Source: Pseudomonas protegens
GTDB lineage: Bacteria > Pseudomonadota > Gammaproteobacteria > Pseudomonadales > Pseudomonadaceae
Direction of reading: 5' to 3'
DNA length: 38,640 bases
Assembly: GCF_003732485.1 (NCBI RefSeq)
Contig: NZ_MOAK01000055.1
Span: forward strand, 108,707-147,346
The notes under the pieces are model-generated. The model was not told where the DNA came from. It saw only the letters and a program-made list of their open reading frames with translations, and did not search any database. Within the stretch, counting starts at the first letter, position 1. Each line of letters begins with the position of its first letter. Made by a program: the position numbers and the translations under genes. Positions 3-18,740 of this stretch are shown here, one piece after another.

Positions 3-1445
3 GCGTCATTTCGCAACGCTGTTACGGTCCGACCTGGTTACACCTTTTCTGCCGGCAAGATACGCAACCAGGGCGCCAATGATGAGGACCAACCCTGGGT
101 GATTACCGGCACCGGCACCTGGAGCCTGAGTGAAAGCCTGACCGCTACTACCGGGCTGATGGCAGCCACCGACTATCAATCCACCGGATGGGGCGTGGAC
201 ACCAACCTCGCAAAGGACACCAGCCTGAGTGTGCGTAACCTCTACTCCCACACAGCCAAGGAAGACGTAAAAGGCACCCAGGCCAGTGTCACCTTGAGCA
301 CGCGTTTCACCGAGACCGTGTCGGGCAGTGTGTCGGCTACCCAGCAGACCACCGGCTATCGAGAACTGTCCGACACCACATTGCATGCTGATGACGATTG
401 GTACAACCGCCGCTACAAGAGCCAATACAGTGCCTCGCTGGGCTGGTCCAATAGCACGTTGGGCAGCTTCAACGTGTCCATTTCACCCAGCCGTACCTTC
501 AATGGCGACTCTACCAACCGCCTGGTGGGCTCCTGGGGGAAAACGTTCAAACATGCCACTGTGTCTGCCACCGTGGAAACCGCATTAAGCGGCTCTTCCA
601 ACAGTCCGGGTGACAGCGACGACGCAATCTACTTCAGCGTCAGCGTGCCCCTGGGTCAGTCCCGTAGCGTGCGCACCTATGCCAGCCGACGCGGCGACAA
701 CCAGCGTTTTGGTGCAACGTATTCCGAAACCATCAATGACCAGTTCAATTACCGCCTTAGCACCGAGAGCACTGGCGACCGGGGTGACAACTATTCTACC
801 GCCAACCTCTCGGCCATTCCTCGCTTCACCAGCGTGGACCTGGGTTATGCCCAAGGCCCGGACAGCAAGAACTACAACGCTCGAGTCTCCGGCGGCGCAG
901 TAGCACATCAAGATGGGGTGACCTTCTCGCCATATCCGGTGCAAGACACCTTCGGCATCGTGGACGTCGGCGACCTGTCCGGGGTCAAGGTGTCGACACC
1001 TTATGGCCCGGTATGGACTGACTACAAAGGCAAAGCAGTGGTGCCACAACTGAGTGCCTATCGAGATAGCCGCGTCGAGGTGCAAACAAAATCGCTGCCG
1101 AAACGGATCGACCTACAGAACGGCTTCCAGAGAATTGGCGCCGGCCGTGGTTCGGTGAGTCACCTCGACTTCAAGGTCATCAAGGTTCAACGCATCCTGA
1201 TTAACGCCTCCGACACAGCAGGACAACCGCTGCCCAAAGGTTCTTCGGTACTTGATGACAAAAACCACTTCCTTACGACGGTCCTGGACAAGGGCGTCAT
1301 CTTTCTTTCTGACCTGGCCCCTACTGAAGTACTGAGGGTTTCTCTCACTGATGAAAAGTCCTGCCTGCTGAAGATCGACTTCCCCAAGGAGACTGACTAT
1401 GACGCTTTTTACGATGTTGCACCGGCTGTTTGTCATGCGCCGTAG
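3..1445 (+). CDS. Fimbrial outer-membrane usher, C-terminal part (5' end outside window)
   Basis: The reading frame is open from the left edge to the stop at 1443-1445, giving about 480 residues without an N-terminus. The first half is rich in Ser, Thr, Tyr and alternating polar/hydrophobic residues, as in the beta-barrel of chaperone-usher ushers. The later part contains DVGDLSGVKVSTPYGPVWTD followed by a GKAVVP...Y..SRVEV pattern and a RGSVSHLDFKV segment, the order seen at the end of the barrel and in the C-terminal domains of FimD/PapC-type ushers. Ushers sit in the outer membrane, accept chaperone-subunit complexes and secrete the growing pilus. The next gene overlaps its 3' end by 47 bases, so the two are probably translated together. 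The chaperone and the rest of the usher should lie to the left. The usher call is firm; the exact fimbrial class (CS1-like or other) is not settled. Confidence 0.85.
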   Translation, partial: ASFRNAVTVRPGYTFSAGKIRNQGANDEDQPWVITGTGTWSLSESLTATTGLMAATDYQSTGWGVDTNLAKDTSLSVRNLYSHTAKEDVKGTQASVTLSTRFTETVSGSVSATQQTTGYRELSDTTLHADDDWYNRRYKSQYSASLGWSNSTLGSFNVSISPSRTFNGDSTNRLVGSWGKTFKHATVSATVETALSGSSNSPGDSDDAIYFSVSVPLGQSRSVRTYASRRGDNQRFGATYSETINDQFNYRLSTESTGDRGDNYSTANLSAIPRFTSVDLGYAQGPDSKNYNARVSGGAVAHQDGVTFSPYPVQDTFGIVDVGDLSGVKVSTPYGPVWTDYKGKAVVPQLSAYRDSRVEVQTKSLPKRIDLQNGFQRIGAGRGSVSHLDFKVIKVQRILINASDTAGQPLPKGSSVLDDKNHFLTTVLDKGVIFLSDLAPTEVLRVSLTDEKSCLLKIDFPKETDYDAFYDVAPAVCHAP

Positions 1446-1983
1446 CACCAGGGCAGATTGCGCGCGATGGCTTGGCACTGCGCTTACCCTGGTTGCCAGT
1501 AGTACGTTCGCGGCCGACTGCGAAATGCGTTTGAGCAACCCGGAGGTCGATTACGGCACACTTAACCGGAGCGATATGGATATCCGCGGGAGTGTTCCGA
1601 TTGCCCTCGGAAACCGGCAACTAAACCTGACGGTGGTCTGTCGCGAAGAAACCCGCTTTGGATTGCGGTTTGAGGGACAAGCGGCGGATTTGAATAGCTA
1701 CCGGTTTGCCGATAAAGGCCATTTCACAATAACGCTGAGTAACGCAACGCTGGATGGAAATACCGTGCAACTCGCTCAGGCTGGCAGTGCCAGGCCGTTA
1801 TCGCCAACGGAGCTACTGCGCCCAAATCAAGTGGTGACAACTATGGTTCAAGGTCAGCGGGCTGTTGGCAAAGTTTTTTTGGCTCAGGTTGAAATTCAAA
1901 CGTATATCAGTGACACAGAGACATATGCGCGCGACATCACCGTACTTGAAGGGCTCGGTAGGTTGACACTGGATACACAATAG
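1399..1983 (+). CDS. Fimbrial minor subunit-like exported protein (DUF1120-like)
   Basis: This 194-residue protein begins inside the usher gene. AAGGAG at 1386-1391 sits at good distance from the ATG at 1399; a second in-frame ATG at 1435 would give a shorter, more usual signal peptide. A hydrophobic stretch (GTALTLVASSTFAADC) reads as a Sec signal with cleavage near Ala-Ala. The mature part has a Cys near its start (ADC), a second Cys in LTVVCREE, and beta-rich sequence ending in LGRLTLDTQ. That is the layout of donor-strand-type subunits and of DUF1120 proteins found beside ushers in Pseudomonas. It is most likely a tip or minor subunit exported by the preceding usher. Similarity is structural and contextual; no catalytic role is expected. 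Confidence 0.6.
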   Translation: MTLFTMLHRLFVMRRSTRADCARWLGTALTLVASSTFAADCEMRLSNPEVDYGTLNRSDMDIRGSVPIALGNRQLNLTVVCREETRFGLRFEGQAADLNSYRFADKGHFTITLSNATLDGNTVQLAQAGSARPLSPTELLRPNQVVTTMVQGQRAVGKVFLAQVEIQTYISDTETYARDITVLEGLGRLTLDTQ

Positions 1984-2130
1984 AAGATTGCATATCGACT
2001 TTTATTTTTAGGCTTGTTCCTAGAGCTTCGCAAACATAATTAATAAGAAAATAGCATTCAGCTGGAATGGAAGCCAGCCACTCTGCCATTGGAGCAGACC
2101 TACCTAACTTTTCGTAACGGAGAAATAAAA

Positions 2131-2805
2131 ATGCGCTTCAATCCAAAACTCGCCGCATGGGCCTTCGCCACTACTGCGACAGCCTTTTCTTTGGGTGCAC
2201 ATGCTGCATCGGTTGAGGTAAAAGTAATTGGCACTATTATTCCGAACGCCTGCACTCCGACATTGGCGGGTGGTGGCACTATCGATTACGGCACACACAG
2301 CTCTACTGACTTGAGCACAAACGATTTTACCCTGTTGCCTGAAAAAAATGTTGCGTTCACTATTGTTTGCAATGCACCGACAAAAGTTGCGCTGAAGGCT
2401 ATAGATAATCGTGCGGGCACACGAGTCCCTGGAGCAGTAAAGAAAATCAGGCCAGCCTTGAATGAAATCGGTGCCTTTGGTTTGGGCAATGCGTCCGGAA
2501 AAAATATTGGTGTTTATGCGATGACCTTAGCCGTAAATGACTTCACTGCTGACGGCGCCCAAGTTGAATCAACCTTCAGCAAAGACTCCGGCACTACATG
2601 GCTAAACTCAAGTTCAGGAGGTATTGTAAATGATGGTTCTGTTCTCATGTCATGGTCGGCAACAACCGCTGGCGCTCCAATCGCATTCAAAACTCTGTCA
2701 GGTACTTTAAACGTGCAGGCCGCGTTGAATAAAGGTTCTGAACTGGATCTGAGCAGCGATGTGTCTCTGGACGGTTCAGCCACGCTAGAGTTAGTCTATT
2801 TGTAA
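2131..2805 (+). CDS. DUF1120 domain protein, probable fimbrial subunit
   Basis: The start at 2131 is chosen because CGGAG lies 8-12 bases upstream and a classic signal peptide follows (ending GAHAAS); an upstream ATG in frame lacks these. The mature protein opens with VEVKVIGTIIPNACTPTL, then IDYG and a second Cys in FTIVCNAPTKVALKAIDNRAG. The two Cys probably form the disulfide of DUF1120 proteins. The C-terminus ATLELVYL is a typical last beta strand of an exported subunit. DUF1120 proteins are common in Pseudomonas next to chaperone-usher genes; their exact role in the fibre is unknown. It follows the previous subunit by 147 bases and ends just before a strong terminator, so it closes the operon. 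Confidence 0.75.
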   Translation: MRFNPKLAAWAFATTATAFSLGAHAASVEVKVIGTIIPNACTPTLAGGGTIDYGTHSSTDLSTNDFTLLPEKNVAFTIVCNAPTKVALKAIDNRAGTRVPGAVKKIRPALNEIGAFGLGNASGKNIGVYAMTLAVNDFTADGAQVESTFSKDSGTTWLNSSSGGIVNDGSVLMSWSATTAGAPIAFKTLSGTLNVQAALNKGSELDLSSDVSLDGSATLELVYL

Positions 2806-3363: not shown

Positions 3364-4029
3364 CTACTCTAGTGCCTTCATTATCTTGAACAACCCATTG
3401 TTAGAGGTTATTCCTAGTTTGCGAAAAGCTGTGGCTTTCTGCGTACTGATGGTTTTTATACTGCGGTTGAACTTCTCGGCGATTTCCGTGATGGTCATGC
3501 CGTCGAGATAACAGCGGATAACCTCCTGCTCACGCGCCGACAGTAAAGCCAATTGCAGCACGTTAGTGTCACTGCTGATTAATTGAGGTGAACTGTCACT
3601 TTGCTGGATGCCATCGACTACTTTATAAGAAGCTTCTGCACTTAGGTAAACAACTCCGGAAGCCACCACCCGGATAGCCTTGGCGAGGTATGTCAGATCC
3701 TCATCCTTGCCAATGAATCCGCGCGCTCCAACTCGCAGGGCCAGCGAGACAGTGGCCGGATCGTGGTGAGTTGACAGCACAAGGATCCGGCAGGCAGGAA
3801 AGCGAACCCGCAAAGCGCGAATCAATGAAACACCATCAAGCTCGTCGCGACCGAGAACGAAGTCCAGCAAAAGCACATCGACGGGCACTGTAGACATGCC
3901 GCGCATCAGTTCCCGGCTGTTTTTATATATCCCGACGATCTCTATGCCGGGGGCGTCGCCTAGGTAACTGGCAAGACCTTGGCGAACGACAGCATGGTCG
4001 TCGAGTAATGCAACACGTATAGACTTCAT
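3364..4029 (-). CDS. NarL/RcsB-type response regulator (RocA-like)
   Basis: This 221-residue protein has an N-terminal receiver domain (about 1-120) and a C-terminal LuxR-type helix-turn-helix (about 155-215). The receiver keeps all expected residues: D10 and D11 in the acidic pocket, D56 as phospho-acceptor (DVLLLDF), S86 and K108. The DNA-binding part reads LSAREQEVIRCYLDGMTITE followed by IAEKFNRSIKTISTQK, typical of NarL-family regulators. It is the only protein in the locus with both an intact receiver and a DNA-binding domain, so it is the likely output of the hybrid kinase encoded 1.7 kb away. In the P. aeruginosa Roc systems the equivalent RocA proteins activate cup fimbrial operons; the fimbrial operon 560 bases beyond this gene is the obvious candidate target. 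That target is inference. Confidence 0.85.
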   Translation of the reverse strand: MKSIRVALLDDHAVVRQGLASYLGDAPGIEIVGIYKNSRELMRGMSTVPVDVLLLDFVLGRDELDGVSLIRALRVRFPACRILVLSTHHDPATVSLALRVGARGFIGKDEDLTYLAKAIRVVASGVVYLSAEASYKVVDGIQQSDSSPQLISSDTNVLQLALLSAREQEVIRCYLDGMTITEIAEKFNRSIKTISTQKATAFRKLGITSNNGLFKIMKALE

Positions 4030-4166
4030 GGCGTTCAGACGTCACTCGGTATGGACCAGGTAGCTCAAAGACTAAAATGAGAATAGTCAATACTGGTACC
4101 TGATTGAGAATTTTTTAAGTACAAACACACAGTTCTGGAAAGTCGCACCCAGGCTTTTGTCATGCA

Positions 4167-5495
4167 CTACCGCGCGACGAGTCTCAGGAAATCAGCCTGC
4201 TCCAATGGAGGGGCCAGAGCCAATCCTTGTCCGGCGCTGCAACCTAGACGGTTGAGCATCTCGATGCTGGATGGGTCCTCAATACCCTCGGTCACCAGAT
4301 TCAAGTTGAAGTAGCGGGCAAGGTTAACGATACCGGAAATGATCTCGCTCGATTGTGGCGATTGCTCAGCAATTCCAGCTAACTTTCCGTCGATTTTCAT
4401 CTCATCGAAGGGTATGTGCGTCAACAGAGCGAGCGTTGCGGCGCCGGCACCGAAGTCTCCGAGCGAAATCAGAAAACCCTTCGCTCGGAGTGCCATGATG
4501 GACGCTGACAACACCAGTTCGTTTCCAGGGGTGATTTGCTCAGTCAGCTCGATCTTCAATCGCCGGGCAGGCAAACCGGCCTTGTGCATCTTGATTGCCA
4601 ACCGGGTAGCCAGTCCGGTGGCACACAGCGTGCGGGCCGAGGCATTTATAGCGATGGGAATGTCTATACCCAGACGATCGAGCGTACCGAGGACTTCAAT
4701 CACCGCTCTCTCGACATGACTGAACAGCAAGAGGCCTAACCCTAACTGTTCGACCATCGGGATCAGGATCAACGGGGGGATGTCGCCGTGGATTGGGTGT
4801 TGCCAGCGTATCAGCGCTTCGGCACCGATCACTTGACGACTGGCCAAGTTATATTGCGGCTGCAGCACCACACGCAGATTTTCACCCGACGTTATCACTG
4901 ACACGACATCGTCTTCGCTGATCAATAACTCAAATCTGTTAGATTGCGACAGCTGCGGTAGCAAGTGTTCGGCAGTAGCAAGCTTTTCGAGTACTTGTAG
5001 AAGTTGAGTGGGATGATTCTCGGCAACGATCTCAACCCGTATGCCCGATGCTCTGGCGAGTCGGGCATACGAGGCCAAGGCTATACTGGAAATACCTTTG
5101 ACGATATCCGTACGGCCCTGCTCGATGGCAGCGGCCGACGAAGTCGCATCATCAAGCGCACTGGCCTTTATGGTCCAGACAATATGGGGAGCTCTGCATA
5201 CCCGGCCGTAGGCGTTAAGTTCACCGACCCAACACGGTAGCATCAGACTGTCGACATGATCAGCATGAATCTCGGCCATAACGATGTCCATAGGTTGCTT
5301 ACGCAGGCGCAGCCTGCTCAGCGATTCAACGTGCTCAATATGGAAAAGACCACTGCCGCTCAGACGCTCTGTCATGCGTAACACATATTGTTCATCGTGG
5401 CTTAATACGACCAGATTGACTCGGGGGGGAGGCGTTAGAGTAAGGGGCGAGTTTTTCAACTTGACGATCGCTTCATGAGTGTACTGACAACTCAT
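4167..5495 (-). CDS. EAL-domain protein with pseudo-receiver; one catalytic Asp lost (RocR-like)
   Basis: The 442-residue product has a receiver-like N-terminal half and a C-terminal EAL domain (about 200-442). EAL domains hydrolyse c-di-GMP. Conserved residues present are E226 (EALIRW), N284 (INAS), E316 (IELTEQ), K367 (MKIDG), E403/E406 (TEGIED) and Q423 (GQG). The usual DDFGTG loop reads GDFGAG: the first metal-binding Asp is G346 while D347 remains, so activity is probably weak or absent. The receiver-like part aligns around VVLSHDEQY and MDIVMAEIH. The phospho-acceptor position is E75 instead of Asp, and the acidic pocket is incomplete. RocR of P. aeruginosa has receiver plus EAL, which makes this a degenerate relative. 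It lies 137 bases upstream of the response-regulator gene on the same strand and diverges from the kinase gene. It may act as a c-di-GMP sensor or a protein-binding regulator rather than an enzyme. Confidence 0.8.
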   Translation of the reverse strand: MSCQYTHEAIVKLKNSPLTLTPPPRVNLVVLSHDEQYVLRMTERLSGSGLFHIEHVESLSRLRLRKQPMDIVMAEIHADHVDSLMLPCWVGELNAYGRVCRAPHIVWTIKASALDDATSSAAAIEQGRTDIVKGISSIALASYARLARASGIRVEIVAENHPTQLLQVLEKLATAEHLLPQLSQSNRFELLISEDDVVSVITSGENLRVVLQPQYNLASRQVIGAEALIRWQHPIHGDIPPLILIPMVEQLGLGLLLFSHVERAVIEVLGTLDRLGIDIPIAINASARTLCATGLATRLAIKMHKAGLPARRLKIELTEQITPGNELVLSASIMALRAKGFLISLGDFGAGAATLALLTHIPFDEMKIDGKLAGIAEQSPQSSEIISGIVNLARYFNLNLVTEGIEDPSSIEMLNRLGCSAGQGLALAPPLEQADFLRLVAR

Positions 5496-5573
5496 TTAAA
5501 CAACGCCTGATCATTTCACGCTATAAGACTGCTCTTAAAAATAATGTGAGATGGCAACCCGTATTCTTATCTC

Positions 5574-5603
5574 GCTCGTGGCGCGCGAGCAGTACAGTAT
5601 AAT
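5574..5603 (+). promoter_or_regulatory. Putative promoter region with inverted repeat between the divergent genes
   Basis: In the 270-base divergent gap a perfect TATAAT lies at 5598-5603, a good plus-strand -10 box for the kinase transcript. The -35 region is poor, suggesting an activator. Just upstream GCTCG / CGAGC forms an inverted repeat (5574-5590, seven-base loop) that could be an operator. Not tested. Confidence 0.4.
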
Positions 5604-5679
5604 TGACGGCCGCTCATGCCAGCGGTAGGGTTTCGATCAAAAGCGTGAGGTCATTCGCTGCTTTCCAGGAGGCATGGTC

Positions 5680-5769
5680 GTGAGAAAAAATGCAGAAAAA
5701 TCCGATAGGCCTGGTGTTATCTTCAATATTGATTTTTTACAACCTAAGTACCAGGTGAAAGCACCATGA
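5680..5769 (+). CDS. Small upstream ORF translationally coupled to the kinase gene
   Basis: A frame of 29 codons starts with GTG at 5680, seven bases after a perfect AGGAGG (5667-5672); an in-frame ATG at 5674 is too close to that site. The product contains VRKNAEKSDRPGVIFNIDF and ends QVKAP. Its TGA (5767-5769) overlaps the kinase ATG (5766) as ATGA. The kinase has its own weaker AGGTGA (5753-5758) inside this frame. The arrangement is typical of translational coupling: ribosomes leaving the small ORF would re-start on the kinase. The peptide matches no family I recognise. It may be a regulatory leader or a true small protein. Confidence 0.45.
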   Translation: MRKNAEKSDRPGVIFNIDFLQPKYQVKAP

Positions 5770-8141
5770 AGCGGGGAGCGGCGTTATGGCCTGCGGTTTT
5801 TCTTGTCTGGTTACCGTCAGTTTTCTCCCAGCCACTGGATCTTACTCCTGAGGAGCGCGCCTGGATTGCTGCACACCCAGTCCTTCATATAGCGGTCGAG
5901 CCTGAATGGAAACCGTTACAGTATGTGGAGGACGGTCAGGACATGGGGTTGGCCACTGAGTACATAGACTTCATCGAGCGCAGCACAGGCCTTCGATTTG
6001 AGTCTGTGCCCGACACGGGAGTTGGACAGGGGAGGATAGAGAAGTTTCAGCGGGGTGAAGTAGATGTACTTCCCGGGATCATGCAGATGTTTGCGGAGAA
6101 ATCGATTATCGATGCCGCCCTTTTTACCAATGTCTATTACACGGGGGCAACGATAGTTGTCACGCGTAAAAACAGTCAGCCGGTATTCGATCTACGCCGA
6201 CTGAACGGGCATGTTGTTGCTGTCAAGAAGGACAGTTCATATGAGAGCGCAATCAGAACGCTCTATCCTGCTATCAAAATTCTTGAAACGAAAACACCCG
6301 AAGACTCGCTGATTGCAGTCATTGAACGGCGTGCTGATGCGGCAGTAGACGTTGCACCTGCACTGCTACCCTTTTTACGCAGCAAATATGATGAAGAACT
6401 GTATGTCTCCGGCGGGATCGCCCGTTTGCCGATGGAGCTTTCCATGGCAGTACGACGTGATCTGCCGATTTTGCGCGATATCCTTGACAAGGTGCTGGCG
6501 TCCATGACTGCTGAACAAGTCGATGCAATGATACAGCGCGAGCTCGAGTCGGCCAACTATGGCAGACCATCGCTAACCGTACTGTTGCGCTATTACGGCC
6601 TGCAAATGGCGCTGATCTTGAGCGGCCTGTTGTTGATCGGAGGGTTTGCGATTCACGCAAGACAGCAACGGCGCCTGGCCATACTCAGCGAGAAAGAGAA
6701 AACCATGTTTCTGGCCGTGCTTACCCATGAGATTCGCTCGCCGATGAATGCCATTCTCGCCTCCATGGAGCTGCTGATGCAGCGTACCGAGCTGCCTGAA
6801 GAGTCTCATCGTTTGTTGGCGGTAGCTTCCAGCGGTGCGGAGAACTTGCTGTATTTGTTGGATGACGTTCTGGACATTTCCAAGCTCGAGGCCGGACGGC
6901 TTCAACTGGATCTGGGGCCCGTCGATATCATGGAGCTGACCCGCTCAGTTGTGGATTTGCTGGCGCTGAAAGCGAAGAACGGAGTTGAGCTTGAGCTGAT
7001 ACAAGAACACCCCATTGAACCCCATCTGATGCTGGATAGGTTTCGCGTTGAACAGGTGTTGCATAACCTCATCTCAAATGCGATCAAGTTCACGCCTGAA
7101 GGTGGCGTGACGATCAGTATACGGTTGGATCCCAGCCCTCCCCCGCTAAACCGGCATCAATTACAAATCCGCATAGTGGATACAGGTATCGGAATAGACG
7201 CCGACTCTCTTCAACGGCTTTTTCAACCATACACCCAAGCAAGCACGAATACTGCGCGCAAGTTTGGTGGCACCGGGCTTGGCTTGACCATCTGCAGGCA
7301 ACTGTTGGAATTGATGGGTGGTACTATAGATCTCGAGAGCGAGCCTGATAAAGGTACTGTCGCCAAAGTACTCCTACCCTGTGATATCTACGTTGCGCCG
7401 CCCCATCTACAAGAACAGAGCTTATCTAGGCAACAATTGGATGTGCCAGCGACAGAGCGAGTACTAAGGGTTTTGCTGGTAGAGGACATGCCCGCCAATC
7501 AAGCAGTCCTCCACGCTCAGCTCGAAGTCTTGGGCTGCAGCCCGACACTGGCACCGGATGGGGAAAAAGCTTTGCTTGCACTTGAGCAAAACACGTTTGA
7601 CATTGTGTTATTAGACTGCGATCTCCCGAGCATTTCCGGCTATGAAGTGGCCCGCCAGTGGCGAGCCATAGAGTCGTCCCTCGCCCTTGCACCTACGCCG
7701 ATCGTAGCGATCTCCGCATCGACCGATGATGAACACACCGCCACCTGTTTCGTCGCAGGCATGGACGGCGTACTGAAAAAGCCCATCAAACTGGGCAAGT
7801 TAAGAGATGCACTTCAACTCTGGACGGATTTGCCACTAGCACATATTGATGAAGAGGCCACATTCGATACAGGTGATCGAGCAGATATCGCACACCTCTG
7901 GAGCGACGTGCATGCGTTACGAGCTGCAGTTGAAATGGCTGACATGGAAGAAGCGACTCATTACGCGCATCGATTGTTTGGTGCCTTCGCAATATTGAAA
8001 CAACCAGATATGGCATCGTTGGCGAAATCAATGGAGGCCCGGTTCAAGGTCGGATCTTCAAGCTTTGCACAGGCGGATCTGGATATTCTGGAACAGTTAC
8101 TAGTGCAATATTCATTATCTACGGAAACAGATAGAACGTAA
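5766..8141 (+). CDS. Hybrid sensor histidine kinase with periplasmic binding domain, receiver and Hpt (RocS/BvgS-like)
   Basis: The 791-residue protein starts with a signal peptide (cleaved near residue 21). One periplasmic solute-binding type-3 domain (about 35-260) follows, then a membrane helix (about 277-297), HisKA with H321 (LTHEIRSPMNA), HATPase with N437 (HNLISNAIKF), DTGIGID and GGTGLGL, a receiver with D617 (FDIVLLD) and K672, and a C-terminal Hpt domain with H735 (YAHRLFGAF). All phosphorelay residues (His-Asp-His) are intact. BvgS and RocS kinases have this order; many carry two binding domains and a PAS domain, whereas this one has a single binding domain and no PAS, so it is a compact form. 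It probably senses a small periplasmic ligand or condition and passes phosphate from H735 to the NarL-type regulator. The EAL gene follows 100 bases downstream. Confidence 0.9.
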   Translation: MKRGAALWPAVFLVWLPSVFSQPLDLTPEERAWIAAHPVLHIAVEPEWKPLQYVEDGQDMGLATEYIDFIERSTGLRFESVPDTGVGQGRIEKFQRGEVDVLPGIMQMFAEKSIIDAALFTNVYYTGATIVVTRKNSQPVFDLRRLNGHVVAVKKDSSYESAIRTLYPAIKILETKTPEDSLIAVIERRADAAVDVAPALLPFLRSKYDEELYVSGGIARLPMELSMAVRRDLPILRDILDKVLASMTAEQVDAMIQRELESANYGRPSLTVLLRYYGLQMALILSGLLLIGGFAIHARQQRRLAILSEKEKTMFLAVLTHEIRSPMNAILASMELLMQRTELPEESHRLLAVASSGAENLLYLLDDVLDISKLEAGRLQLDLGPVDIMELTRSVVDLLALKAKNGVELELIQEHPIEPHLMLDRFRVEQVLHNLISNAIKFTPEGGVTISIRLDPSPPPLNRHQLQIRIVDTGIGIDADSLQRLFQPYTQASTNTARKFGGTGLGLTICRQLLELMGGTIDLESEPDKGTVAKVLLPCDIYVAPPHLQEQSLSRQQLDVPATERVLRVLLVEDMPANQAVLHAQLEVLGCSPTLAPDGEKALLALEQNTFDIVLLDCDLPSISGYEVARQWRAIESSLALAPTPIVAISASTDDEHTATCFVAGMDGVLKKPIKLGKLRDALQLWTDLPLAHIDEEATFDTGDRADIAHLWSDVHALRAAVEMADMEEATHYAHRLFGAFAILKQPDMASLAKSMEARFKVGSSSFAQADLDILEQLLVQYSLSTETDRT

Positions 8142-8241
8142 TCGCGAGAGGGGATGGCTCTCCTTTTAGTCCGAATCCGATATCTTGCTCTCTGCACGCT
8201 GCGTAGAGTCTTTGGCATTACTACTCGTATAGGTCGATACG

Positions 8242-9465
8242 ATGTCATCCAAGCCAAAGCAGAAAAAAAACTACAGCGCACTGCCAAAATTGCTGATCGT
8301 GGGGACAGTTGAAGATATCGGCTACAGCCTTTCGTTCGCCGGAGAAACGGAGGTCGTAAAAAACCTGAGTGCAGCGACAATCGCACTGGCCACGCGACGT
8401 TTTCATGCAGTGTTGAGTCATATCTCGACGGAGTGTGCCGAGGGGTTGGCCTTACCGTCATTACTGCTGGACCTCAAGCGGCAACGCATATTGTCGAATT
8501 TGCCTGTGGTCATATGGTACAGCGCGCAGAAACAGAGCTTCTTGGATTGGCATATAAGGCTGGCAGGGCGTGCGGGTGTAAAGGTCCTGCTTTTCGACTT
8601 GTCCAGTTCAAATGTCGAAATGAATATCGTCAGTGCTCTATTGGAAAATGTAGCCAGTGGCGAGTCCATCCAGCACGACGAAACACAGGTACCAAACACG
8701 CTTGAGCTGATGCGTGCCCTGTTGACCAATAATGATTTCAGAATAGTGCTGCAACCGCAAGTCAACCTGCAAACCGGCGAGATCGTAGGTGCCGAGGCGC
8801 TGGCGCGCTGGAGCCACGAATCCAAGGGCAACATTGCACCGTCGACCTTTGTGCCGTTGGCGCGCCAGGCCGGGATGGATCTGCTGCTTTTCCACATAGT
8901 GCTGACTAGAGTGATTGCGCTGTTGAGCGATTTGCACCGTCAGGGTGTTGCTGTGCCTATCGCAGTAAATGCATCAGCCTCGACTTTATCTACGGTTGGC
9001 ATCGGCCGATCACTCGCGCAAAGGCTTCGTGAAGCAGATGTGCCTACTTCCCTACTCATGATCGAATTGACCGAAGACGTGCCAGTTTATGATTGGCTTG
9101 CCTTGTCGAGGGAGTTGGGTTCTCTGCGCATGTGGGGCTTTCCGATTGCAATGGACGATTTTGGTTGTGGCTTTGCTTCGATAGACCTGTTGACTCAAAT
9201 GCCATTTTCCAAACTCAAAATTGATGGCCGCTTCGTACAAGGTATGGGCGATGACTGCGGCTGTTGTGCGGCAGTCTGCGCAGCGATTTCGATAGGCCAG
9301 ACCATGGAGCTGGATATCATCGCCGAAGGGATTGAATCTTCATCGCAGATTGATGCATTGCTCCAGCTTGGGTGCCGCACAGGACAAGGTTTTGCCCTGT
9401 CGACACCTTTGGAAGTGGACGAGTTCATGCGCCTGTTCCCCATCAGGATCAGGGATAGGCAGTAA
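8242..9465 (+). CDS. EAL-domain phosphodiesterase with degenerate receiver (RocR-like)
   Basis: The 407-residue protein resembles the other EAL protein of the locus in length and order: receiver-like region (about 15-140) then EAL domain (about 155-407). All catalytic positions visible in the family are kept: E185 (EALARW), N243, E275 (IELTED), D305-D306 (MDDFGCG), K326, E362/E365 and Q382. Active c-di-GMP hydrolysis is therefore expected. The receiver-like part has lost its acidic pair (IVGTVED) and has H60 where the phospho-acceptor Asp belongs (FHAVLSHI), so phosphorelay control through this domain is not possible. It shares direction with the kinase and may be co-transcribed. RocR in P. 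aeruginosa is phosphorylated on its receiver; this protein must be controlled differently, for example by direct protein contact. Confidence 0.85.
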   Translation: MSSKPKQKKNYSALPKLLIVGTVEDIGYSLSFAGETEVVKNLSAATIALATRRFHAVLSHISTECAEGLALPSLLLDLKRQRILSNLPVVIWYSAQKQSFLDWHIRLAGRAGVKVLLFDLSSSNVEMNIVSALLENVASGESIQHDETQVPNTLELMRALLTNNDFRIVLQPQVNLQTGEIVGAEALARWSHESKGNIAPSTFVPLARQAGMDLLLFHIVLTRVIALLSDLHRQGVAVPIAVNASASTLSTVGIGRSLAQRLREADVPTSLLMIELTEDVPVYDWLALSRELGSLRMWGFPIAMDDFGCGFASIDLLTQMPFSKLKIDGRFVQGMGDDCGCCAAVCAAISIGQTMELDIIAEGIESSSQIDALLQLGCRTGQGFALSTPLEVDEFMRLFPIRIRDRQ

Positions 9466-10309: not shown

Positions 10310-10509
10310 TGCTGAGTGCAGACGCACTTATCCCGTGGCAGGCGGCCTCGAGATCTAAATCTAGCCAGCCGTCGCAGTTTCTATACCGCCGCAGCCTGCG
10401 TGAATTCATCGATCCCGCTACTCATGCCACATAGTCCCAGGCGATCCAGTTTCAGGATGCGCTTGAGATGGGCAAACAATATCTCCGCCTTCTTACGTTC
10501 GCGGCGAGA
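10310..10509 (-). pseudogene. C-terminal remnant of an IS transposase (IS1182/IS5-like)
   Basis: Minus-strand translation gives RERKKAEILFAHLKRILKLD, then DEFTQAAAV, a TAG stop at 10381-10383, then KLRRLARF. This is the familiar end of DDE transposases (R-K-x-x-E..FAHLK ... A-x-x-QNLRRLA): the stop sits exactly where the Gln of QNLRR is expected (CAG to TAG). Only the last 60-65 codons remain. The first part is fused in frame to the phage tail gene K. The insertion probably removed the phage genes I and J that should follow. No terminal repeat could be identified. Confidence 0.65.
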
Positions 10510-10953
10510 GCGCACATAGTTCGGCAGCTCAATCCCATACTCGCGCTCGTAGTAGTCGCGACAAAGCGCGTAGCAGTCCAGTAGGCCGTGGCCAAACTCG
10601 CGCCCGATCAGCGGCGCCTGGTAGCCGCACGGCTTGAACTCGAAGTACTCCCCCGACGGCCAGCTGACAATGCCCCATGGTTTCTCGTGCAGCTCGCAGC
10701 TGACCCGATCAGCCATGCTCGGCGTGGGCGGCACGTCCGGATGAGAGTGAATGATCATCGTCACCTCGCCGCGGTCCTCAGCGTCGCACTTGTCGGCCGG
10801 GTTGATGATGAAGTGCTCGCTCGGGGTCTTGGCATCGTTGCGACAGGGAACGTACTTCAGGCGCCCAGCCTCACGGATCACAACACCACAGCTTTCCTTG
10901 GGAAACTCCGCCTGGGCGTGGGCCTGGATCTGTTTCAACATCGTCTTGTTCAT
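10381..10953 (-). CDS. Lambda gpK-like tail assembly protein, truncated and fused to transposase end
   Basis: Residues 1-148 are a gpK-type protein. A JAMM metallo-isopeptidase-like motif is complete (E20, H69-S-H71, S79, D82), followed by the start of an NlpC/P60 domain (GHGLLDCYAL with C127). The second half of the NlpC domain, with its catalytic His, is missing. From about residue 149 the sequence changes to the transposase end described separately, ending at 190. Family members are about 240-250 residues long. gpK acts at the tail tip of siphophages. It starts 8 bases past the end of gene L in the usual tail order H-M-L-K on the minus strand. Almost certainly non-functional. Confidence 0.8.
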   Translation of the reverse strand: MNKTMLKQIQAHAQAEFPKESCGVVIREAGRLKYVPCRNDAKTPSEHFIINPADKCDAEDRGEVTMIIHSHPDVPPTPSMADRVSCELHEKPWGIVSWPSGEYFEFKPCGYQAPLIGREFGHGLLDCYALCRDYYEREYGIELPNYVRSRRERKKAEILFAHLKRILKLDRLGLCGMSSGIDEFTQAAAV

Positions 10954-10960
10954 GAATTAC

Positions 10961-11647
10961 CTATCCAATGAGCGCGGCACCAGGTGCACCACCAAAAGGC
11001 AGTGGATTCCCCCGGCCATGCCGTATCTCGCAATCGCTCGGGCGGCCTCCGCAGCGATCTAGCGCAGGGTCGTCCACAGGCTTGCCATCCAGGTCGAACA
11101 TCTTTATGCCCGTGTAGTTGCAGTCAGGGCCGCGGTACTCACCCCAGAGACACCACTCACAGCGGTTCATGATCAGGCCGCCCGGCAACATCTGTCCTTT
11201 CACCGCCGTCGGCGGAGCCAAGGTGAACACCACTTCTTCGCGCCCCAAGCTGGTCACCTGGTTGATGTAGGAGATGTCCAGCCGCTCCATGGTGCTGGCC
11301 CCGGGGTTGCCCTCGGGGAAGTTCGCAGGGTCCAGGTACTTGGCGTAGGTCTGCCGGACCGTCAGCTTGACCCCGCTCATCCCCTGGAAGCGACGGCACA
11401 GGGCCGTGATCACGCCATCGATATTGCTGATCTTCAGCATGGGGGTTGAGCTGTTACCCTCGACACTCCGGCCGAAGCCGCCAGTCTCGTATGGCCTGGG
11501 CAGGTATTCCTCGCCTTTCCAGATAATCGGCGTCGACTGCTGGTGAGCGTGGTAGCGCAAGATCCCCATGCCCCGTGCCTCACCATCCAGCTCAATCAGT
11601 TGAATCAGCGCTCCTGGCTCAAGCTTCTGGTCGTCGAGCGTGATCAT
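10961..11647 (-). CDS. Phage minor tail protein L
   Basis: The 228-residue protein begins at the ATG overlapping the stop of gene M (ATGA), preferred over an upstream in-frame start inside M. It shows the gpL pattern: ITLDDQKLEPGALIQLIELD at the start, ISNIDG in the middle, and a C-terminal cysteine cluster C163, C166, C176, C199, C206 (MNRCEWCLWGEYRGPDC, then C-x6-C). In lambda gpL, C-terminal cysteines hold a [4Fe-4S] cluster; the same is expected here. It would form part of the tail tip. It looks intact, with its neighbours M and K in conserved order. Confidence 0.88.
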   Translation of the reverse strand: MITLDDQKLEPGALIQLIELDGEARGMGILRYHAHQQSTPIIWKGEEYLPRPYETGGFGRSVEGNSSTPMLKISNIDGVITALCRRFQGMSGVKLTVRQTYAKYLDPANFPEGNPGASTMERLDISYINQVTSLGREEVVFTLAPPTAVKGQMLPGGLIMNRCEWCLWGEYRGPDCNYTGIKMFDLDGKPVDDPALDRCGGRPSDCEIRHGRGNPLPFGGAPGAALIG

Positions 11648-11982
11648 GGGTTGAATACCTGCTGAAAAGTGGTGCTCAGGGTGTACTTCCTTTTGCCGTG
11701 GGTTTGCAGCTGCCAGCCACCGGTGGTGATGTAGGCGCCCTCGGGCTCGAGCGGTGGCGTCCATAGGAAGTGGTTTGCGCCCTTATGCCTGATGAAGAAC
11801 TCCTTGATCGGCTTGATGTACTCCTCGCTTCCGGTGAAGGAAACGGCGTAGGTGCCGGCAATGTTGTTGATCCCAACCGAAAGGCGCTGGCTGTAGCCGT
11901 TGCCATACTTCGACTCAAGGACCGCGGACTGGTCATCACCAGACGAGCCAACCCGTGGCGACCAGGTGAATACCTCTGCCAT
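11644..11982 (-). CDS. Phage minor tail protein M
   Basis: The 112-residue protein has the gpM layout: MAEVFTWSPRVGSSGDDQ at the start, FGNGYSQR-like KYGNGYSQRLSVG, and a C-terminal W-Q-L-Q...F..VF.P. gpM is a small tail-tip protein next to the tape measure. The start ATG overlaps the stop of the tape-measure remnant (TGATG), and the stop overlaps gene L. It looks intact. Confidence 0.88.
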   Translation of the reverse strand: MAEVFTWSPRVGSSGDDQSAVLESKYGNGYSQRLSVGINNIAGTYAVSFTGSEEYIKPIKEFFIRHKGANHFLWTPPLEPEGAYITTGGWQLQTHGKRKYTLSTTFQQVFNP

Positions 11983-17539: not shown

Positions 17540-18571
17540 ATGGGAAGAAGACCAACCAAGCCGGGCTCCATTGCCCGGCTGCGTGAGCGCAAAAAGAGAA
17601 GCGGCCGCATCTACTATTACTACGACACCGGCGGAAAGGACCGCAAAGAGATAGCGCTGGGGAGCGACTACGGTTTGGCAATCATGGAATACGCGAAACT
17701 GGAGCGCGACCGTACCGCGGTAGACCTGGTCGCCAAGGTAGTAACGTTTCGCTACGTGGCCGAGAAGTACATGGTCGACGTGGTGCCCGACAAGGCGGAA
17801 AACACCCAAAAGGACAACGTGCGTGAGCTGAAAAACCTAATGGCGTTCTTCGACGACCCACCGGCTCCCCTAGAAACTATTGAACCGCTCCATGTCCGCC
17901 AGTATCTGACTTGGCGAAAATCCGCACCGGTCCGCGCAAACCGGGAAAAAGCTCTATTGAGCGCCATCTGGAATTACGCCAGGGACAAGGGCTACACATC
18001 GCTGGCCAACCCGTGCTCCGGCATTAAGGGCAACAAAGAAACCGGCCGAGACACCTATGTCGAGGACGAGCTGTTCAAGCGCGTGCATGACAAGGCCGAC
18101 GCCGGGCTGCACGATGCGATGGATTTAGCCTACTTGACCGGTCAACGAGTGACAGACACACGACTCATGGATGAGCGAGACGTGCGAGACGGTCAGATCT
18201 GGGTGCTCCAGGGCAAAACAAAGGCCAAGCGGCGTATCGAAGTAACGGGTGAGCTGAAGGTTTTAATTGATCGAATCAAGGCCCGGAAGTCAGGACACAA
18301 AGTCCGCTCGACGCGGCTGATCGTTGCAGAGGATGGCACCCCGATGACGGCGGCGATGTTGCGAAGGAGGTTTGATATGGCCAGAGAGGCCGCAGGAGTT
18401 GAGAAAGCCGACTTCCAGATGCGTGATTTGCGCGCCAAGGCTGGCACAGACAAGGCGGAATCGAGCGGCGATATCATGCAGGCCAAAGATCAACTTGGGC
18501 ATACCACCGTAGTGATGACCGAGCAGTACATCCGCAACCGCAAAGGCAAGAAGGTCTCACCGACAAAGTGA
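17540..18571 (+). CDS. int: Phage tyrosine-recombinase integrase
   Basis: The 343-residue protein has an arm-type basic N-terminus (GRRPTKPGSIARLRERKKRS), a core-binding domain (about 65-155) and a catalytic domain. Catalytic residues are R203 (TGQRVTDT), a Lys in QGKTKAK, R298 (RDLRAKAG, where Arg replaces the usual His of HxxR), H321 (LGHTT) and Y330 (TEQYIRN). The RDLR variant is normal in lambda-like Pseudomonas phages. It ends 82 bases from the 3' end of a tRNA-Leu gene, the probable attachment site. It appears intact and may still be able to act. Confidence 0.92.
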   Translation: MGRRPTKPGSIARLRERKKRSGRIYYYYDTGGKDRKEIALGSDYGLAIMEYAKLERDRTAVDLVAKVVTFRYVAEKYMVDVVPDKAENTQKDNVRELKNLMAFFDDPPAPLETIEPLHVRQYLTWRKSAPVRANREKALLSAIWNYARDKGYTSLANPCSGIKGNKETGRDTYVEDELFKRVHDKADAGLHDAMDLAYLTGQRVTDTRLMDERDVRDGQIWVLQGKTKAKRRIEVTGELKVLIDRIKARKSGHKVRSTRLIVAEDGTPMTAAMLRRRFDMAREAAGVEKADFQMRDLRAKAGTDKAESSGDIMQAKDQLGHTTVVMTEQYIRNRKGKKVSPTK

Positions 18572-18600
18572 ATTGCGGACCATTGGATTAATTGCGGACC
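18571..18600 (+). repeat. Pair of 11-bp direct repeats between integrase and tRNA
   Basis: AATTGCGGACC occurs at 18571-18581 and 18590-18600. Position between the integrase gene and the attachment site suggests arm-type integrase binding sites, by analogy with lambda-like attP regions. Confidence 0.45.
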
Positions 18601-18653
18601 GGAAAGATACAGGCATTTACACTGGCTATAGCCCGTAAACCCTTGATTTTAGA

Positions 18654-18740
18654 TGGTGCCCGAAGCCGGAATCGAACCGGCACGCCCTTACGAGCGGGGG
18701 ATTTTAAGTCCCATGCGTCTACCAGTTTCGCCATTCGGGC
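18654..18740 (-). tRNA. tRNA-Leu (anticodon UAA)
   Basis: The 87-nt minus-strand sequence folds as a class II tRNA. The acceptor stem is GCCCGAA / TTCGGGC, the anticodon loop CTTAAAA (anticodon TAA), the variable arm long, the T loop GGTTCGATTCC, and CCA is encoded. Its 3' end faces the integrase gene, so the prophage is inserted at the tRNA 3' end. The gene itself is complete. Confidence 0.97.

Follow-up and report, generated by a model that had tools for sequence, protein, structure and literature searches.

How c-di-GMP (cyclic di-GMP) turnover could remain tied to a phosphorelay once the EAL proteins of a locus have lost the residue that accepts phosphate is the question raised by a four-gene cassette of Pseudomonas protegens. 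The cassette was analyzed within a 38,640-nucleotide stretch of DNA, hereafter the window (RefSeq assembly GCF_003732485.1, contig NZ_MOAK01000055.1, positions 108,707 to 147,346 of the forward strand), which lies on contig C85 of a 7.2-Mb draft genome of 92 contigs (G000). A regulator and one EAL protein (EAL1) are encoded on the minus strand, and an unorthodox kinase and a second EAL protein (EAL2) on the plus strand (Table 1). These four genes are open reading frames with the domains listed, as judged from the reading frame list and Pfam, and bear out the initial annotation, which had described a BvgS-type hybrid kinase, a NarL-type regulator and two EAL proteins beside a chaperone-usher operon. 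The locus is a real, well-bounded variant of the PvrR/Roc type, in which the phosphate site has been lost throughout the EAL branch and the two EAL proteins differ at a catalytic residue. This difference, due to Gly346 of EAL1, had been overlooked in the initial annotation, as had an RcsAB-like box at 5524-5537 and a 27-bp shared promoter element.

Loss of the Phosphate Acceptor in the EAL Proteins

When EAL1 and EAL2 were aligned to RocR-type REC-EAL proteins (REC, receiver domain), the acceptor column was occupied by Glu75 in EAL1 and by His60 in EAL2, in exact agreement with the initial annotation. The column of the acid pair held Ser32/His33 in EAL1 and Gly21/Thr22 in EAL2, and that of the beta-5 Lys held His161 and Ser122, respectively. 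Asp was present at the acceptor column in none of the 16 proteins of the EAL clade (12 Glu, 3 Gln and 1 His, the His being that of EAL2) and hence in 0 of the 15 EAL1-type proteins (12 Glu, 3 Gln). Homologues retaining Asp, beside which this pair would be a rare mutant, had been named as the finding that would overturn the earlier view; this reading was ruled out, with 0 of 14 orthologues carrying Asp. The partner NarL-type regulators from the same cassettes and from a further genome, G130, when aligned, kept the acceptor Asp in 27/27 cases, while the kinases kept the first His (H1) in 27/27, with H1, D1 and H2 all intact in the window kinase. With Asp in 0/16 EAL proteins and 27/27 regulators, the loss is fixed in the EAL branch and is not shared by the regulators. 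The pseudo-receivers have a conserved signature of their own, [EQH]-x(6)-[DE]-x-L-x-L-P, which starts at the acceptor column. The receiver Asp is also gone from other EAL proteins of these genomes (Asn80 in c59deg, Asn62 in G236b and Pro70 in c15).

AlphaFold2 models of both proteins were generated from eight-row alignments, with a mean pLDDT (predicted local distance difference test) of 75.5 for EAL1 and 78.4 for EAL2. Both N-terminal halves were modelled as five strands alternating with helices before the EAL domain, strand 3 ending with Glu75 in EAL1 (69-75) and including His60 in EAL2 (56-61), such that a (beta-alpha)5 receiver fold is predicted for each. With respect to known structures, RocR (PDB 3SY8) was listed first for the EAL1 model by VIA-align (Z 32.8, 355 residues aligned over 24-442, both domains) and for the EAL2 model by Foldseek (E 1.4e-28 over 403 columns, both domains, rmsd 15.1), the best non-RocR Foldseek row for EAL2 having an E value of 6.9e-24. 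Since the rmsd of EAL1 to RocR was 18.2, the domains are oriented differently in the two proteins. Comparison of the predicted N-terminal structures with REC folds had been proposed as a check, and receiver topology nearest to RocR was recovered in both models; an unrelated fold was not supported by the models, though sequence profiles alone could not show a receiver. As the models are receiver-like yet Asp and most of the acid pocket are missing, ordinary receiver phosphorylation is very unlikely, and the earlier claim to this effect stands in that form.

Active Sites of EAL1 and EAL2

The metal-binding and catalytic residues of RocR are given as E175, N233, E265, D295, D296 and E352, with D295 acting as a metal ligand (PMC7911125). 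This list is complete in EAL2 but not in EAL1, where Gly346 stands in the D295 column, replacing the first Asp of the DDFG motif. At the 11 EAL-site columns checked, EAL1 departs only at Gly346 and keeps the other 10, whereas EAL2 keeps 11/11, including this Asp. Across the 30 columns that do not vary among 22 other EAL proteins in the alignment, Gly346 was again the one departure of EAL1, with c59deg excluded from the count as itself degenerate. Gln212 and Arg230 of EAL1, at columns of substrate-contacting residues of RocR, are retained. The metal-binding active-site Asp has been lost in EAL1 and kept in EAL2; on the basis of these residues EAL1 is likely non-hydrolytic and EAL2 is a probable active phosphodiesterase.

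A second Roc-like locus, on contig C59 of the same genome (L009:4093-15349), also encodes two EAL proteins, one of canonical RocR type and one degenerate, the latter having Asn80 in its receiver and an EAL domain changed in DDFG, KLD and EGIE.

Phylogeny and Distribution of the Cassette

In a tree of EAL domains (40 rows, midpoint root) the EAL1 clade was closed without EAL2 (100/99) and EAL2 was its sister (98/99). The two proteins had been described earlier as a diversified duplicate pair, which is correct in the deep sense of sister clades; recent local duplication was ruled out by the tree, and the 14 other genomes with the EAL1 clade carry one such gene each. At E<=1e-50 the EAL2 query matched 15 of 398 genus genomes, its own included. 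In three of the 14 (G140, G305 and G383) the EAL1-type gene is accompanied by a single kinase and a single regulator, and in the other 11 by two of each. G130 has the kinase (81%) and regulator (83%), arranged divergently next to an operon for CS1-type fimbriae, and a search there for EAL genes of the EAL1/EAL2 clade found none; therefore the relay does not need the EAL proteins.

Searches for EAL2 itself were made in draws from a genus that holds more species than were drawn. The EAL2 N-terminus was found only in its own genome among 249 genus genomes, and no orthologue of whole EAL2 was found in 249 and 398 genus genomes (overlapping draws, with 7 and 4 candidates scored per genome). Among 115 relatives a single additional hit fell in the EAL domain of a protein from another family, and in a contig scan with two short peptide patterns only P. 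lactis/P. paralactis rows, among the best 80 kept, matched from residue 39 onward. The window kinase, searched in 115 relatives at E<=1e-180, was likewise found only in its own genome.

The adhesin genes beside these cassettes differ greatly across species, with the RcsAB-like box described below as the common link. The kinase-regulator cassette lies beside CS1-type fimbriae in G130 (L067) and beside chaperone-usher genes with DUF1120 in the window. In G140 (L034) the cassette lies beside a YadA-type trimeric autotransporter, and G305 and G383 contain reading frames equal to it in length. In the 11 two-kinase loci (L035-L039, L168-L173) the proximal kinase keeps H1, D1 and H2 in 11/11, while in the distal kinase the Hpt His is replaced by Gln, Arg or Tyr in 7/11 and the receiver Asp by Ser or Ala in 2/11, one of which also lacks the Hpt His. 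This pattern, whether division of labour or decay, is reminiscent of PvrS/RcsC.

RcsAB-Like Boxes and a Shared Promoter Element

Comparison of the EAL1/kinase gap of the window with the kinase/regulator gap of G130 revealed a 24-bp footprint containing an inverted repeat, TAAGACTGCTCTTA, which resembles in form the enterobacterial RcsAB box, TAAGAATATTCCTA. The G130 counterpart, TAGGACTGCTCCTA, has the palindrome changed in both arms, that is, the arms covary. In its strict form the box occurred at 20 places in the genome as compared with 8 for a reversed control, and by position 5 of the 20 fell at the EAL- or adhesin-linked stretches examined (L009, L013, L014, L017 and the window).

A wider form, TMRGA-N4-TCYKA, was present in 16/16 cassettes, with 41 sites in 18,697 intergenic bp versus 1 in 120,977 genic bp (p 6e-35), 'genic' denoting frames with a cassette match or of at least 180 aa, so that small genes were counted as intergenic. 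With one representative for each of the four arrangements there were 9 versus 0 sites (Fisher p 2e-7). These p-values are only a guide because the cassettes are related, many of the 16 closely, and because the form of the box was widened and fixed after some of the same loci had been viewed, a circumstance that also counts against the reading proposed below. Boxes were located upstream of EAL1-type genes, of regulators and of the CS1 subunit of G130, between EAL1 and the YadA-type adhesin in G140 and, in the two-kinase loci, upstream of a small reading frame before the chaperone, which is probably a fimbrial subunit. A few lie just behind the kinase or adhesin in G140-type loci, where no obvious gene is served (Table 1). 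Taken together, the positions of these boxes in cassette regulatory DNA suggest regulation of the RcsB type.

A second link to the fimbrial genes is the 27-bp element upstream of EAL2, which recurs in the promoter region of the chaperone-usher operon. Its local alignment score of 31 was reached by 0 of 1000 Markov-simulated sequence pairs, and a search of the whole draft genome that allowed up to 3 mismatches, with a pattern built from the two known copies, returned no third one. A 13-bp piece upstream of the regulator resembles part of the element at 12/13 positions (about 1 in 300 simulated pairs, 20 comparisons). Sigma-70 and terminator scans performed no better than on shuffled sequence (3 vs 6.1 expected and 5 vs 5.3, respectively).

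Proposed Mechanism and Alternative Explanations

We consider it reasonably probable that the locus is a PvrR/RcsB-like (Roc-like) adhesin cassette, closest in logic to PvrSR/RcsCB, in which the relay ends at the regulator and c-di-GMP hydrolysis is coupled to it by transcription. The kinase, judging by its intact residues, would relay phosphate from His321 through Asp617 and His735 to Asp56 of the regulator, which would then bind the conserved RcsAB-like boxes and drive the adhesin genes together with the cassette, including EAL1. The EAL proteins would not be phosphate outputs, and the c-di-GMP arm would therefore be coupled by transcription, phosphodiesterase activity following from gene dosage. 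Their N-terminal domains, which lack the Asp, may have been kept as pseudo-receivers for folding or oligomer contacts. EAL2 would be made together with the fimbrial operon through the shared promoter element and would lower c-di-GMP as a brake, and EAL1 would probably be a non-hydrolytic c-di-GMP-binding or partner protein, its candidate roles being partner of EAL2, c-di-GMP receptor or relict. The clade offers a clean natural example of a response-regulator-type phosphodiesterase that lost its phosphate input while the partner transcription factor kept its own. It opens to experiment the question of how c-di-GMP output remains linked to a phosphorelay, here probably through co-transcription from RcsAB-like boxes.

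Several observations weigh against this transcriptional reading. Response_reg was not detected by Pfam in EAL1 or EAL2 at E<=0.1, and hhalign profile matches were weak, at 23% for EAL1-type N-termini to RocR-type receivers, 0.8% to the receivers of the regulators, and 1.1% for the EAL2 N-terminus to the RocR type. True receivers were among the sequences aligned for modelling, which means that the models do not support the receiver idea independently; moreover, pLDDT falls below 50 in the part of the EAL2 model that contains the final helix of the receiver, the VIA-align match of EAL2 to RocR covers the EAL domain only (Z 32.2), and for both proteins the RocR rows of VIA-align were tied with plain EAL domains (Z within 1). 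With respect to the boxes, the strict form matched once in the window where 0.06 matches were expected, but it was present in 5 of 100 shuffles and the single match is thus weak. The EAL2 and fimbrial promoters of the window contain no perfect box (two mismatches each), and upstream of the regulator no box was found with up to two mismatches. EAL2, and with it the EAL1/EAL2 pair, is known from one draft genome only.

It is possible, though on balance unlikely, that EAL2 took over as the working phosphodiesterase and that EAL1 is a relict losing its function, with no special mechanism for the pair. Such decay would fit the loss of the catalytic Asp by EAL1 alone among 15 proteins, the finding of EAL2 only in its own genome, and the private changes of EAL1 at conserved columns, which exceed those of the sister trio both in the EAL domain (15 vs 5) and before it (14 vs 6). 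EAL1 nonetheless remains a full-length open frame that is identical to its G140 counterpart at 160/236 EAL positions and keeps its other 10 active-site residues, the box lies 28 bp from its start, and functional EAL proteins that do not hydrolyze c-di-GMP are known. That EAL1 and EAL2 form a pseudo-enzyme/enzyme pair, with EAL1 sensing c-di-GMP and controlling EAL2 through paired pseudo-receivers, we regard as rather doubtful; if true, a receiver family that abandoned phosphate signalling would now work through protein contacts to adjust c-di-GMP locally for a single adhesin operon.

Gly346 might instead be a sequencing or assembly error and the pair two active phosphodiesterases, as could be argued from the draft state of the genome and from the sequence being that of a single strain, but a two-base difference separates the codon from its counterpart in the three nearest orthologues and the frame stays open on both sides, making this explanation very improbable. 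An ordinary RocR-type phospho-switch, with Glu or His as a substitute phosphate acceptor, is hardly credible: Glu can mimic phosphorylated Asp and is present in 12/15 EAL1-type proteins, but the acid pair and pocket Lys are also gone, Gln is found in three relatives and His in EAL2. Some weight, if less than to decay of EAL1, can be given to the pseudo-receivers serving as docking modules, whereby the kinase, its Hpt domain or the phosphorylated regulator binds without phosphotransfer and switches EAL2 directly. The receiver-like fold appears to be retained in the models together with a conserved signature, and the N-termini of EAL1-type proteins and EAL2 are homologous by hhalign (93%, E 2.9e-7); against docking, the N-terminal domain is the least conserved part of the two proteins (15% identity vs 41% in the EAL domain), and the part of the PA14 study drawn on here reports no two-hybrid contact of PvrR with either sensor (PMC3842833).

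Features of the Window and Related Loci

Across the regulator from the EAL genes lie a fimbrial chaperone (just upstream of the window), the usher and DUF1120 subunit genes, the usher being interrupted by a 55-N assembly gap (L017:12653-12707) that ends at the window start.

Table 1. Coordinates of the cassette, its regulatory elements and the adjoining fimbrial genes, given as window positions unless prefixed by a locus or contig.
Feature	Position	Strand	Remarks
Chaperone-usher outer-membrane usher, C-terminal part	99-1445	+	Pfam Usher, PapC_C; presumed target operon, neighbouring
Second DUF1120 subunit	1399-1983		below Pfam cut-off
DUF1120 fimbrial-type subunit, chaperone-usher group	2089-2805	+	Pfam DUF1120
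NarL/RcsB-type response regulator, 221 aa	3364-4029	-	Pfam Response_reg and GerE; acceptor Asp56 present
EAL1, 442 aa	4167-5495	-	Pfam EAL; receiver-like N-terminus, Glu75 at acceptor column; Gly346
EAL1 codon 346 (Gly)	4458-4460	-	RocR Asp295 column; Asp in 14/14 orthologues
RcsAB-like box TAAGACTGCTCTTA	5524-5537		divergent EAL1/kinase promoter region
Candidate second, weaker box GCAGAAAAATCCGA	5692-5705		one mismatch; 60 bp upstream of kinase; weak alone
BvgS/EvgS-type unorthodox kinase, 791 aa	5766-8141	+	Pfam SBP_bac_3-HisKA-HATPase_c-Response_reg-Hpt; His321, Asp617 and His735 all present
27-bp element upstream of EAL2	8163-8189	+	shared with chaperone-usher operon promoter region (C85:106730-106756)
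EAL2, 407 aa	8242-9465	+	Pfam EAL; receiver-like N-terminus, His60 at acceptor column; 11/11 active-site residues checked intact
Boxes behind kinase or adhesin	L034:6288, 16362; L166:13955, 3882; L167:6155, 16231		G140-type loci

Upstream of the window, two RcsAB-like boxes (L017:6408-6421 and 6761-6774) precede the gene of an autotransporter with a PAP2 domain (L017:6920-10321), a possible further member of the regulon. Close to the cassette is the remnant of an integrated element, in which an L-family minor-tail gene of phage type is flanked by tail-like frames (10381-11982), and in which a tyrosine integrase adjoins tRNA-Leu(taa), the latter at 18654-18740 (17540-18740 for the two together). 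At two other fimbrial loci of the same genome, small proteins of 157-158 aa with a putative receiver-like start are encoded just downstream of EAL genes (L013:4037-4513 and L009:3501-3974).

Comparison with Known Systems

In the literature searched, no paper was found on the EAL1/EAL2 pair or on the Asp-less EAL proteins of this clade. LapD, FimX and YdiV are functional non-hydrolytic EAL proteins which lack several motifs; EAL1 shares with them an EAL fold with a lost catalytic residue but differs in lacking one residue only. RocR was the first-listed structural match of both models, but the EAL domains are only 29-30% identical to the RocR-like protein G089c, whose numbering is that of RocR, and the acceptor Asp and pocket are missing in the window proteins.

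The Roc1, Roc2 and Roc3 loci of P. aeruginosa and P. paraeruginosa, as described in the portion of the report drawn on here (PMC12051241), likewise combine an SBP_bac_3-type kinase, a NarL-type RocA and a RocR-type EAL protein, divergently arranged beside cup genes. The window has this gene set, with an SBP_bac_3 H1-D1-H2 unorthodox kinase, a NarL-type regulator and an EAL protein beside a chaperone-usher operon, but its EAL proteins do not have the phosphorylatable receiver (Asp, acid pair and Lys) of the Roc type: 5/8 aligned RocR-like rows keep the Asp and the window clade none. The same source reports that the P. aeruginosa Roc kinase contacts both the regulator and the EAL protein, and that P. 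paraeruginosa RocR3 has a perhaps compromised active site while its overproduction still lowers cupB and cupC expression (PMC12051241). Damage to the active site therefore does not have to leave an EAL protein of such a locus functionless. The residue affected differs, being that of the Asp295 column in EAL1 and that of E357 in RocR3.

The closest likeness is to PvrSR/RcsCB, which is encoded with cupD on PAPI-1 of P. aeruginosa PA14. By NCBIfam the best model for the regulator was the RcsB equivalog (NF008098; 106 bits, under the curated cut-off of 235) and that for both EAL proteins was the PvrR equivalog (NF052596; 135 bits for EAL1 and 169 for EAL2, far under the cut-off of 580). PvrSR/RcsCB comprises two sensors and a single EAL protein, whose receiver is not degenerate, whereas the window has one kinase and two EAL proteins, both without the Asp and one with an altered active site. 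Both systems place an unorthodox kinase, an RcsB-type regulator and a receiver-EAL protein beside a chaperone-usher operon with an RcsAB-like box, that of cupD1 being functional according to the sections of the PA14 study drawn on here (PMC3842833). In the same sections, overproduced PvrR D57N matched the wild type in lowering cupD transcription, pvrR rose nearly fourfold when RcsB was overproduced, and RcsB-dependent dispersal required PvrR (PMC3842833). The initial annotation had measured the locus against Roc loci with one phosphorylated RocR, an unsafe yardstick given that the related PvrR, when overproduced, was equally active without its Asp. These are the features for which PvrSR/RcsCB serves as precedent: an EAL effect that is independent of the receiver Asp and an EAL gene that is induced by RcsB (PMC3842833).

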